This document shows positions 55,233 through 59,970 of a DNA stretch of 64,000 nt, in pieces; the first letter of the stretch is position 1, and the number at the start of each line of letters is the position of its first letter. Location: positions 2,577,111 through 2,641,110 of the forward strand of contig BCJC01000002.1 of NCBI GenBank assembly GCA_001600175.1, in the 5' to 3' direction. A program made the position numbers and the translations under genes. Origin of the DNA: Erythrobasidium yunnanense. Taxonomy: Eukaryota > Basidiomycota > Cystobasidiomycetes > Erythrobasidiales > Erythrobasidiaceae. Below the pieces are notes generated by a model, which ran no database searches, had not been told where the DNA came from, and worked only from the letters and a program-made list of their open reading frames with translations.

Positions 55233-56533
55233 CTACTGCGTCTTGAAGCCCTCCTTCTTGAGCAGAGCAGCTTTCTGAGCCTCCTTCTTTGCCTCAGCCT
55301 GCTTTTGGCGCTTAGATCTGTAGCCAGCTTCTGTTCCAAAGATGTAGTCAAGGTGTCTGAACGACGTGCTATAGCATCCCATGAAGCTCTCATGATGGTA
55401 GTCGTGGTGGTCTGCTCCTGACCATAGAGGGAATATATGCTGGAGCGACCAAGGGAAGTCGTAACCACTGCAGAATCCGGTCAGCGAAGGTTCGCCGGTC
55501 GCACGAAATGGATGGAAGCTTACGAGTGTGCATCTACTGCTTGAAATAGTCTAAGGATGATCCAGATATACATCGTGATGATATGGAGGTTGCCGCCGGA
55601 CAGGATGCACCACAGCAGAGGTCCGCCAACGGTTCCAGTTCCGAGAATGAGTATCTCCAAAGGGTGTGCGTACTCTTTTATAAGACGTTTATTAGCTGTG
55701 CTTTCATGCCATTCAATCGCTGGCTTACCTGCAGCAAGTCCGAAGGGTGCGCTGAACTCGTGGTGAAGTTTGTGGATATTCTTGTAGAGCGGACCCCAGT
55801 GAAGAGCACGATGAGCCCAGTAGTGGAAGAAGTCTTCAAAGAAGAAGAAACCGATGATAGTAGGTACGATGGTCGTCCACTTGGGGAAGGGAACTTGGTG
55901 CGTGGCCATTCCAAAGTATTCAGCGAGTGGGTGAAATCCCCATATCTGAGGTAGTTCGATGGTGAAGTGTGTCAAGAGGACGTATTTCGTGCACTTCCAC
56001 ATCTCTGCCTTGGTAGGTACTTTCGCCTCTTGGATTTTGTACTTTCGGAAATAAGGGATAGAATCGACGATGATCCACGGTACGCAGCGCCCAAAGTAGA
56101 AGATCTCATGTAGCAGGAAAGACATGATTCCTGTTGCGAGAACGGGATCGCCAATGTACCTGAGACAAAGAAGATCGTTGAGCTCGGCCGTTCTTTCGGA
56201 CTTTCGCAGGTTCGTTCGTTGTATGCTTACATGTACTGTAGAGAAGTTACACATATAACAATCAGTATTGCGATTCTCTCGGTTCTTGCGCTCGAAGCCT
56301 CCCTCAACGCCCGCAGAGGTCGGACTTTTTCGCGCAACACGAAGACAACTTACCCATCTTGCCCATAGCTGTTCAGGGTATGAGAGTGCATCAAAGTTGT
56401 GTCCAGCGTATAGATCGTTTGGGATTGCATTGCTCTTAAGGGCGCTCGAGAAGGACGAGCTGTCTGTGTATGTGCTCGCTTGGAGCGTGGTGTTGACAAT
56501 GTTGCCTATCTGGCTGACTATCTGAGCCGCCAT
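55233..56533 (-). CDS. ERG25: C-4 methylsterol oxidase
   Basis: Complement exons 56533-56354, 56235-56231, 56159-55729, 55674-55524 and 55467-55233 give 333 aa. The di-iron histidine clusters are present: HYWAHRALH, HKLHHE and HHDYHHE. So is the membrane-helix lead YIGDPVLATGIMSFLLHE and [20 protein letters not shown], which is diagnostic for Erg25. It demethylates C-4 of sterol intermediates in the ER, with Erg26/Erg27. The second exon is only 5 nt (TACAT): it joins ARW to YMYIGDP and no other combination keeps the frame. The C-terminus is basic and Lys/Ala-rich. Confidence 0.95.
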
Positions 56534-56983
56534 CGTGGAATATTCTACTTTGTTGAAGTTGTCTTGAAGAAGAGAGAAATTGGGCACAATCCTGCAGAGT
56601 CCTCGCTCCTGCTCGTTCCTCTCAGGCCACTTTTTGAAGTTCGCCCGGCGCGCGTTTGAGCAAAGTGGCAAACGTCTGGCCTCGTTCGATGATGTTCGGT
56701 CAGCACAGGAACAACAAGGAACAGAACACAGAAGAGTCGCGTGGAAGAACAGCGAGGCACTGGATCTTGCGTGAGTTGTGCTTTGCAGGCGGTCATTGCC
56801 ATTCTATCGATCGATGGTAGTCGCGCACAATGTAATAGCTTCGCTACATTGCAGAAGGTGTTGTGATGCGTATACAGCTGTAGTGTACACCGTGATTTGA
56901 TCGGGGCTTGGGATATTTGACGCAGAGCCATGCGAGTGTATCATACCCGCTTAGGCCAAACTGGATGCGATATGGTGAATACC
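56534..56983. promoter_or_regulatory. ERG25 upstream region
   Basis: 450 bp between the isochorismatase end and the ERG25 start, both minus strand. An open frame in the same direction overlaps ERG25's start but has no conserved sequence. Confidence 0.4.
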
Positions 56984-57880
56984 CTACAATCTGGGCTGCA
57001 CCAGCTTCTGAAGGCTCTTGACCGTATTCTCCTTCTCTTCCTTGACGAGCTTTGAAATCGTCCTGAATTCAGGATGGGTAGAATCAGCTGCAATTTCCAA
57101 ATATTTACATTAGCATTCAGCCATCTGAAGAGTGAGAGAGTATCGGCGCACCCATCAGCTGGAAAAGAATACTCTCTGTTGTAGTGACTTTGGCGCCTGC
57201 TTGTTGCATCCGGTCGAGCGCTATTGGGATTTCTTGTGGGTTGCAGGAGGATACTCCGTCTGCTACGATATGGACATCGAGCCCTCGCTCTATACAGTCC
57301 AGTGCGGTCTGGAGGACACAGACGTGGGACTGAAACAATATTCAGCAAACATTTCCTAAATCTCAGCTTGTAGACCTATCCCTGACTCACTTCTATGCCG
57401 AATATAACAACACTTGACGTTCCCGCTTTTGTCAGGGACTCCACTACGCTCGGAATCATCATCGAAAAGAGTGTCTTTGGCTGAGCGCTCCCCAGGGGAT
57501 TGAGCTCTGTCGGAAGATCAGCCAGTCCAAGTTCAGAGACGGTAGCTCCCAGGGCGTAAGCATCATAAGGTGGGTAATTAGTACTGTTGGAAAGGCAGAG
57601 GAAGTAGCGTATGCCGCCTATCTTTGGATTTTGTTCAGTCGCATAGACGGGTATCTTCAAGATTCCAGCTGCTTGAATTAGTTTCTTACTAGCCAGAACC
57701 ATCTCGTTGAAGCCATAGATGGCATTGCGAAAGCGTTCTTGCTACATCATACCACAGGATGGAAGGTCAGCCGGATATGACCGGCCCATGTTGTGAAGCA
57801 AGGCATACGATGTCGCAAACGAGGAAAGCTGTCTTCTGCGGGTTGATCTTGATGCTTGAGACTGCCTTGCTTGAAGCCAT
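56984..57880 (-). CDS. Isochorismatase-family hydrolase, with a probable AT-AC intron
   Basis: Complement exons 57880-57809, 57741-57622, 57555-57391, 57329-57152 and 57087-56984 give 212 aa. The Asp-Lys-Cys triad of the family is visible: FLVCDIQERF (Asp23), QPKTLFSM, and ESHVCVLQTALD (Cys123). It resembles the ISOC1/yeast cysteine-hydrolase branch; substrate unknown. Between EQNPK and ALGATV lie 66 nt with no stop and no GT...AG ends. They begin ATAGGC, end GCTTAC and contain tactaat 19-25 nt before the end. Removing them restores the family's uninterrupted NPKALG. The alternative is a retained 22-residue insert (IGGIRYFL...). It is head-to-head with tafazzin. Confidence 0.88.
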
Positions 57881-57999: not shown

Positions 58000-59108
58000 A
58001 TGCCCCTCCTGCCTTTTGCCGTCGCCGCCCTCGTCAAAGCTTCTCTGTACACTTTATGCGAAAGTGTGGACGTCCAAGGCCTCGACAACTTGCTGCGCGC
58101 CCTAAAGTCTGGAAAGGGCGTGTTGACTGGTGCCCTTTACTTACCCTCTCAGCTCTGCTACTTCGTCTTGAGCTGACATGAAGCCGGATGCCATGCAGTC
58201 TCAAATCACATCTCGATTATAGACGATCCCTGTGCGGTATCAGCTGCTCTGCCTTGGCGATATTTCCTTGATTCCAAGACTACTCGCTGGACATTGGGCG
58301 CAAGCGATATCTGCTTCATCAACGCGTGAGGCGGCCCCTATCTGCAAGTAGCCGAGACAGTCATTGACTTATAGCTGCATAGTCCAACGAGGTTCTTCTT
58401 CAATAATGGACAAGTCATAGAGACGTTCCGCTCATCCGCGAACATAGACAAAGCTGGAATATACCAGCCTGCGCTGGATCTGGCAATCAAGAAGGTGGGT
58501 TTCCGTATGTATGAAACGCTGTTCAAGCCTAATATGTGTTGCTACTACAGATAGACCAAGGTCAATGGCTGCACATCTTCCCTGAAGCCAAGGTACACCA
58601 GCATCCTCAGCATGAACTGCTGAGATTTCGATGGGGCACAAGTCGAATTCTAATGGAAGCGAAGAACGACTACGAAGTGATCCCAATCTGGCTAGAAGGT
58701 GCGTCCGTCTACCGACCCCTTCCACCCCCAAGGCTTACTAGCATAAATATACGCTACATTACAGGCTTCGACGATCTCATGCCTGCAGACCGTACTTTCC
58801 CACGCTTCATCCCTCGTTTCTTCGGCACTCGTATCCGAATAATAATCGGTCCTTCAATCTCTTCACGCATCAAACCAATCGTACAAGCCTATCGTGACCA
58901 AGGTGGGAAACCTACACCCTACTGCACGCTAGATGCGGATAGACCGCGTCCGAGAGACTATAAAGGAGATTCGGAGCTTGTGAGAAATACGAGGATCGAG
59001 ATCGCACGAGTGTTGAGGGAGGAAGTGGAGAAATTGGGAAAGAGGACAACGGATTTCGGCATCAAGAACAAAGATAGAGAACTGAAGGAAGTGGTGACGG
59101 AGTATTGA
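58000..59108 (+). CDS. TAZ1: Tafazzin (cardiolipin-remodelling acyltransferase)
   Basis: Exons 58000-58129, 58199-58325, 58383-58494, 58551-58698 and 58765-59108 give 286 aa. The acyltransferase motif HX4D is NHISIIDDP (His47, Asp52). Next come SDICFINAPTRFFFNNGQ, GIYQPALDLA and the FPEAKVH block, then RFRWGTSRILMEA. This order is tafazzin, not a general PlsC enzyme. It transfers acyl chains between phospholipids and lyso-cardiolipin in mitochondrial membranes. An out-of-frame ATG at 57995 overlaps the start and would give a 36-residue product, which may reduce initiation. Its start is 119 bp from the isochorismatase start. Confidence 0.95.
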
Positions 59109-59970
59109 AAATCCCAAGTATTCTCTGGCCCAAACACACCGATTCTGCCAATTCATGAGCTTTTCGGGCCTGAACGGATACGGACCATATTCTGGCAGTC
59201 TGTCTTCCGCTTATCTAGACTTCGGCCTTAGATCTACAGGAGGGAGCAGTTTCCCGAAGAAGCTGCACAGCGTGCCGCGATGGGCCACGCGTAACCGCCG
59301 AGCTGTGATTTGAGAAGGCACTCAGCATTCGGTCAGGGAGGAGCACGTTCGGGGTAGAGCTCACCTTCCATAGCTGGAATATGGACTGTCAAGATATCCG
59401 AGCCTATTCCTCTTCCTCCTGCATTGGTCTTTCGGATCCTTCACCATCGGAACTTCCATGAAGCTCTACTGGGCTTTCATCCGTCATACCGGCTGCGGCG
59501 TATGCATTGTACGCATAGTACATGTGGATTTTACGTGTTCTTGCAAGAGTCTGACCAGACTCTGACACCCTTTGAGCGGGCGTACGATCCGGGAATCTTG
59601 CTCTTGATCCAACCTAGGATACTATTGGAAGCCCTTGGCTCCTTCTTTCCTACTGTAGTAGCTACGTTACGCTCGTTTGAGCCGGCTTCTTTTGCGACTG
59701 AAGGCGACATGTCGGACAGAGAAAGACAGCAGACAGCCGTCTTTCATTCCGTGTCATTAGGATCGCATTGGCTTTTCAATAGCATTCAATGTTGTTCCTG
59801 TCTACTCCCTTCGGCCTTAATACATCGCTGGTCTGGCTGTGATCCATTCGGGCCGTCTCCCTTGGCTCTGACGATAGGGGTCCGCTGATTTCAGTCAATA
59901 CTCTGGATCAACCATTTCCAGGGTTGGCTCTGCTTCAACTCAGTCATAAAGTTTCAGCAAATCTGAAGCA
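59109..59970. other. Intergenic region before the eIF4E-like gene
   Basis: 862 bp. A 154-codon frame runs from 59424 to 59888, but it begins with a non-ATG codon, has no recognised motif and lies where a promoter and 5' UTR are expected, so I do not call it. Confidence 0.45.

Follow-up and report, generated by a model that had tools for sequence, protein, structure and literature searches.

A putative U2-type AT-AC intron in an isochorismatase-fold gene of Erythrobasidium yunnanense, with ends apparently kept among close relatives

INTRODUCTION

Among fungal introns predicted with SnowyOwl, about 0.03% have AT-AC ends, compared to 1% with GC-AG ends (PMC4084796). One described case is human SCN4A intron 21, a U2-dependent AT-AC intron of type II that is removed by the major spliceosome and is possibly trapped. 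The need for both ends to change at the same time may be what traps introns of this kind (PMC2831892). Fungal AT-AC splicing in the absence of a minor spliceosome is exemplified by Saccharomyces, with the protointron of SUT635 and the alternative AT-AC junction of RPL30; among end pairs, only GT-AG surpasses AT-AC in efficiency in yeast (PMC6726248, citing Parker and Siliciano). U12 introns are reportedly missing from the Basidiomycota (PMC2846911; PMC10639083), although the table of PMC2846911 has the entry '-?' for Phakopsora. We found no report of the intron described here in the literature we searched on Cystobasidium introns and on basidiomycete AT-AC introns.

Here we analyze a 66-nt stretch in the genome of Erythrobasidium yunnanense (10 contigs, 20.9 Mb) that, as judged from sequence comparison, is almost certainly an intron removed by splicing, with the rare ends AT...AC. 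It shares these ends with SCN4A intron 21 but belongs to an enzyme gene of a basidiomycete, is 66 nt long, has ends that are apparently kept across a clade of yeasts, and is presumed to depend on the major spliceosome. Whereas the SUT635 protointron lies in a noncoding RNA and the RPL30 case is an alternative junction, the present stretch lies within a coding gene that is conserved, and relatives share its ends. A gene finder restricted to GT-AG and GC-AG introns would read this one as protein, and hence such genes can be misannotated. If our reading is true, a natural AT-AC intron kept throughout a basidiomycete clade would provide an in vivo instance of the A/C pair of ends described in yeast mutants.

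RESULTS AND DISCUSSION

The host gene and its second intron

The window (i.e. the whole stretch of 64,000 nt that was analyzed) contains, on its minus strand, a gene of five exons whose anatomy can be read directly from the sequence (Table 1). Two of its exon ORFs score above the curated cut-off for PF00857, the isochorismatase domain, and its PDB relatives are 8rl0 and 2b34 (MAR1). By sequence, the gene thus belongs with the ISOC/MAR1-type isochorismatase-like hydrolases and, intron apart, the enzyme shows nothing unusual compared with them. Without its four introns, the gene has 639 coding nt, which corresponds to the 213 codons of the preliminary description, with the stop included, and to a protein of 212 amino acids. 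The nearest named relative, Cystobasidium minutum P0001, likewise has 212 amino acids; on the basis of this one gene, the yeast is most likely Cystobasidium-like (Pucciniomycotina). P0002, a fragment from a JGI source, matches more closely (93% over 45% of the query) and starts just inside exon 3, so the intron site is not visible in it. The motifs VCDI, PKTLFSM and SHVCVL occur in the exon ORFs and, going by the spacing in PMC4348438, may represent a putative Asp-Lys-Cys catalytic triad. We considered whether the insert adjoins the catalytic lysine and dropped this idea, as by spacing the triad lysine sits in PKTLFSM and not in NPK. Nothing marks the gene as one of the secreted isochorismatase effectors of plant pathogens, with which it was compared through the literature.

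Table 1. Features of the host gene, in positions of the window (slashes mark splice borders)
Feature	Position	Strand	Basis
Isochorismatase-fold (ISOC/MAR1-type) gene, ATG to stop, five exons	56984..57880	minus	PF00857 and exon lengths
Exon 1, 72 nt	57809..57880	minus	sequence parse
Intron 1, GTATGC...GTAG, 67 nt; CTGAC branch-like site, A 25 nt from end	57742..57808	minus	
Exon 2, 120 nt, last residues ...EQNPK	57622..57741	minus	
Putative AT-AC intron (second intron), 66 nt, phase 0	57556..57621	minus	sequence, protein gap, relatives' ends
Putative donor AAG/ATAGGC, G at +5, not U12 donor ATATCCTT	57616..57621	minus	sequence
Putative branch site TACTAAT, branch A = 57578, 22 nt before intron end	57577..57583	minus	sequence
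Putative acceptor TAC/GCC	57556..57558	minus	sequence
Exon 3, 165 nt, first residues ALGATV	57391..57555	minus	
Intron 3, GTGAGT...TTTCAG, 61 nt	57330..57390	minus	
Exon 4, 178 nt	57152..57329	minus	PF00857 match on ORF 57117-57341
Intron 4, GTGCGC...TTGCAG, 64 nt; CTAAT branch-like site, A 22 nt from end	57088..57151	minus	
Exon 5, 104 nt incl. stop	56984..57087	minus	

Most of what the preliminary description had said of the 66 nt holds. They start with ATAGGC and end with GCTTAC at the place given, their number is divisible by three, the reading frame across them (ORF 57376-57741, minus strand) contains no stop, and their excision joins EQNPK to ALGATV, as in relatives. The motif TACTAAT is also present but was misplaced: counted back from the end of the intron, it spans nt 28 to 22 and not 19-25, with 21 nt after it. 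The donor has A at +3 and G at +5, while G at +4 and C at +6 are off consensus. With a purine at +3 and G at +5, it fits pairing with U1 and U6, and ATATCCTT is absent. The branch site is of U2 type and at the usual distance, with the same 22 nt as the CTAAT of intron 4; in both length and branch spacing, the AT-AC intron matches the GT-AG introns of its host gene.

As the stretch is open and in frame, an unspliced mRNA could still be translated. The same properties, together with a length divisible by three, would suit a reading in which the 66 nt are coding and specify a lineage-specific loop insertion of 22 residues in the enzyme. We consider this very unlikely, as both ends and the branch motif suit an intron. 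Among annotated fungal introns, an open frame together with a length divisible by three occurs in 10.7% of the AT-AC class and in 9.2% of the GT-AG class (PMC7072748, Table 2), and hence these properties do not tell the two readings apart. Codon usage provided no separation, with log-odds of 0.11 for the insert versus 0.18 and 0.09 for its exons.

The insert is missing from related proteins

When the frame is read through, 22 extra residues stand between NPK and ALG. None of the 11 alignment rows that cover the site carries them, and PDB chain 8rl0 aligns in two pieces with the break at the insertion point. Protein homology thus fixes the insertion point independently, and the gap is seen to be exact. 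Among the best 120 of 5194 relatives, read at the site, not one has any piece of the insert. Relatives encoding the same 22 residues had been named in the preliminary description as the observation that would speak against an intron; we found none among the relatives read, an absence that rests on the matches listed (13, the best 120 of 5194, and 53) and that argues against the coding reading.

Two proteins, P0003 and P0014, read NPKALG and show no traces of an intron. Both are 'merc' records, which we take to be RNA-based, and their sequences are thus probably RNA-derived, which gives indirect support to removal of the insert from the mRNA. The exon 3 piece of another protein, P0130, is identical to that of C. 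minutum P0001, and P0001 as annotated has no insert.

One observation that favors the coding reading is that the loop may tolerate extra residues. In 19 listed proteins of Rhodotorula, Rhodosporidiobolus and Sporobolomyces (P0025-P0033, P0035, P0039, P0040, P0042, P0043, P0046, P0049, P0096, P0098 and P0125), other and often proline-rich residues are found at the same point, 15-21 of them in the 17 proteins whose end could be set. These extras are missing from other records of the same species in two instances (P0019 versus P0025, and P0097 versus P0040), which suggests either alternative acceptors in tandem or a GT-AG intron that was misannotated. In a separate case, an annotated protein of Moesziomyces antarcticus (P0012) lacks ALGAT after EQNPK, while P0103, which bears the same label, has it; the gap in P0012 is probably due to a misplaced acceptor in the annotation.

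Unspliced gene calls of close relatives reveal the intron borders

The strongest evidence for an AT-AC intron comes from gene calls of close relatives that appear to run, unspliced, into the same intron. Some metagenome-type calls (lgn, ena, jgi) were presumably made without intron models, on genomic rather than spliced sequence. Calls of this sort run from exon into intron and so reveal the amino acids at its border. We classified 62 distinct proteins at the site by regular expression, one of them (P0147, contiguous) by eye. Forty are contiguous across NPK-ALG, six stop short of the site, ten are acceptor-side calls, five are donor-side calls, and one (P0161) reads through.

P0012 was left out of the donor-side count, as this annotated protein of a smut fungus is missing part of the exon. 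Ile directly follows NPK in all four donor-side calls of close relatives (P0156, P0158, P0167 and P0172). The residues at this position are IGAI, ISLS, IGHI and IRIM in the four calls and IGGI in the window. On the acceptor side, Tyr or His directly precedes ALG in 5/5 calls of the clade (P0006, P0130, P0131, P0132 and P0133), compared to Tyr in the window. Ile after NPK places AT at +1/+2 of the intron in the close relatives, and Tyr or His before ALG means that the intron ends in A followed by C or T, to the exclusion of AG. Both borders can be read directly from the calls in this way. For the last intron base of the relatives, where amino acids alone are known, we infer C rather than T.

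Before the site, the donor-side calls share 70-90% identity with the window. Mutual identities in the exon 3 piece are 65-74% for the window and the five acceptor-side carriers, which hence represent distinct species. Donor-side and acceptor-side calls cannot be paired by species, so some of them may share one. Past NPK, the four donor-side frames run on for 10, 11, 26 and 43 residues, and not one of them leads back to ALG. P0156 and P0167 end after 11 and 10 residues, respectively, within the length of such an intron, and the two longer frames could reflect a stop or frame change beyond the intron. Contig ends are another possible cause of these frame ends (the contig of P0167 has 143805 bases). 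The insert interiors of the close relatives show no mutual resemblance by eye. That the relatives differ in sequence here and that no donor-side frame comes back to ALG both argue against the coding reading.

Such calls could have revealed CAG acceptors and GT donors, and neither was seen in the close group. One caveat is that gene callers hide introns with in-frame stops, and thus an acceptor TAG would stay unseen. We also sought the DNA of the relatives, with no match among viral contigs and 22 loci among genome contigs, all with bacterial titles.

These border residues bear on two further explanations. The sequence permits a different parse, namely a GC-AG intron of 72 nt, in frame, from ATAG/GCGGCA to GGGAG/CTACC, and GC-AG introns are the commoner class by the SnowyOwl figures given above. 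This parse is highly improbable. It would turn the conserved ALG into Ile, although P0003 and P0014 contain ALG; its donor GCGGCA and acceptor GGGAG are poor; and it leaves both the Ile after NPK and the Tyr or His before ALG in the relatives unexplained. That faulty assembly or sequencing altered an ordinary GT-AG intron at both of its ends, an explanation suggested by rarity alone, has a probability close to nil, as two separate errors would be required and the gene calls of other contigs share the AT start and an AC-compatible end.

Other lineages and the history of the intron

It had been suggested that the same gene in related species be compared for a GT-AG intron at this spot. The close relatives do not bear this out, as they keep the start AT and an end in A plus C or T, while other lineages appear to have a GT-AG intron, but in phase 1 and one base further on. 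Outside the group, Pro, Thr, Ser or Ala (NCN codons) precedes ALG in 5/5 acceptor-side calls, and P0161 reads through as NPKGK...FCLALG. Together, these residues would fit AAGG/GTAAG...YAG/CN, that is, a phase-1 GT-AG intron located one base downstream. This putative intron (P0161, P0144, P0150, P0153, P0166 and P0171) occupies the same gene family and loop as the AT-AC intron. It differs by its GT-AG ends, its phase, and its acceptor, which from the amino acids would be CAG or TAG before CN. The one-base offset needs a length change at each end. In Cryptococcus, PMC2740785 reports no clear case of intron sliding. The offset could serve as a test of intron sliding and of the origin of trapped AT-AC introns.

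We built a tree from the 55-residue exon 3 piece for 29 rows, without the donor-side calls; with so few columns, its resolution is weak. One set of 14 rows (support 86/85) takes in the window together with all five acceptor-side carriers. The other rows of this set are P0002, C. minutum, P0003, P0014, P0005 and P0129 (no intron), and P0137 and P0138 (uninformative). In P0005 and P0129, NPKALG is read without a gap, while the ends of both proteins resemble retained intron sequence, which suggests that they come from genomic DNA in which the AT-AC intron has been lost. The simplest history would be a single origin of the AT...AC ends in the clade, after which some lineages lost the entire intron, with no visible return to GT-AG.

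Spliceosome type and proposed mechanism

We put the probability at about 0.92 that the 66 nt form a real AT-AC intron of U2 type, that the major spliceosome excises it, and that its ends were set in the ancestor of the Cystobasidium clade and have been kept. The preliminary description had likewise proposed a U2-type AT-AC intron, and the 22-residue gap, the ends of the relatives, the frames that fail to return to ALG and the U2-like signals all support this. In E. yunnanense, splicing would proceed with U1 and U6 reading the donor AAG/AUAGGC and U2 pairing with UACUAAU. In the second step, a pair of A(+1) and C(-1) would replace the usual G/G contact. Fixed in the ancestor of the Cystobasidium clade, the AT-AC ends would have remained unchanged since then, probably because splicing would fail if just one of them changed.

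From the signals of the intron and the reported lack of U12 introns in Basidiomycota, we infer dependence on the major spliceosome. AT-AC ends are typical of the U12 class, and in P0158 the Ile-Ser-Leu after NPK could in principle be ATATCCTTA. Even so, a U12-type intron removed by the minor spliceosome is scarcely plausible, for several reasons. The donor reads ATAGGCGG, not ATATCCTT, and does not match RTATCCTT. The donors of the other three relatives, with IG or IR, are incompatible with ATATCC, and the branch site TACTAAT, 22 nt from the end, is not of the CCTTAAC type (consensus from PMC3033335). A search of the genome for spliceosomal RNAs gave no match to U12, but the U2 control likewise gave none. 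We also searched the genome for PF18036, presumably the U11/U12-25K domain, with no match, in a search that no control genome proves to work. The companion search with zf-U1 returned two partial matches and matched the E. coli control too, which makes it a weak control.

A variant that is less improbable, though still unlikely, treats the intron as a fossil. Here, an AT-AC intron of U12 type at the border NPK/ALG in an ancestor would have acquired both a +5 G and a branch site of U2 type, moved to the major spliceosome when the Basidiomycota lost U12 splicing, and become trapped in the Cystobasidium clade, with the GT-AG intron one base away elsewhere.

Rarity of the arrangement

To gauge chance, we counted 66-mers of the form AT...YAC on both strands of 264 kb of the genome (n = 771). 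Only two of these have TACTAAY with its branch A at a distance of 8-40 nt from the end. One of the two also starts with ATRNG. Since the 66-nt stretch shows all of these features, the sole 66-mer left is that stretch itself.

In a composition-based scan of the same 264 kb, AT-AC showed no excess, with 15 distinct donors, whereas the 253 end pairs that served as controls averaged 24.6; GT-AG gave 80 distinct donors. No other AT-AC intron was identified in this way. This AT-AC scan is a weak filter, too noisy for single cases, and by design omits stop-free in-frame introns such as the present one. With this proviso, the AT-AC intron described here looks like a rare individual and not one of a class. 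For comparison, the table of PMC2846911 gives Phakopsora 2 'other AT-AC' introns, 561 GT-AG introns and 10 GC-AG introns.

The AT-AC scan also pointed to a second stretch of the form ATAGGC...CTTGACA...TAC, 54 nt long, at 59354-59407 of the window (minus strand). The surrounding ORFs give no clear gene, and this stretch is probably due to chance. As for the neighbors of the host gene, a fatty acid hydroxylase (PF04116) is encoded at 55520-56803 on the minus strand, and a gene at 58533-59108 on the plus strand has a weak acyltransferase match (PF01553), just below the cut-off of that family.
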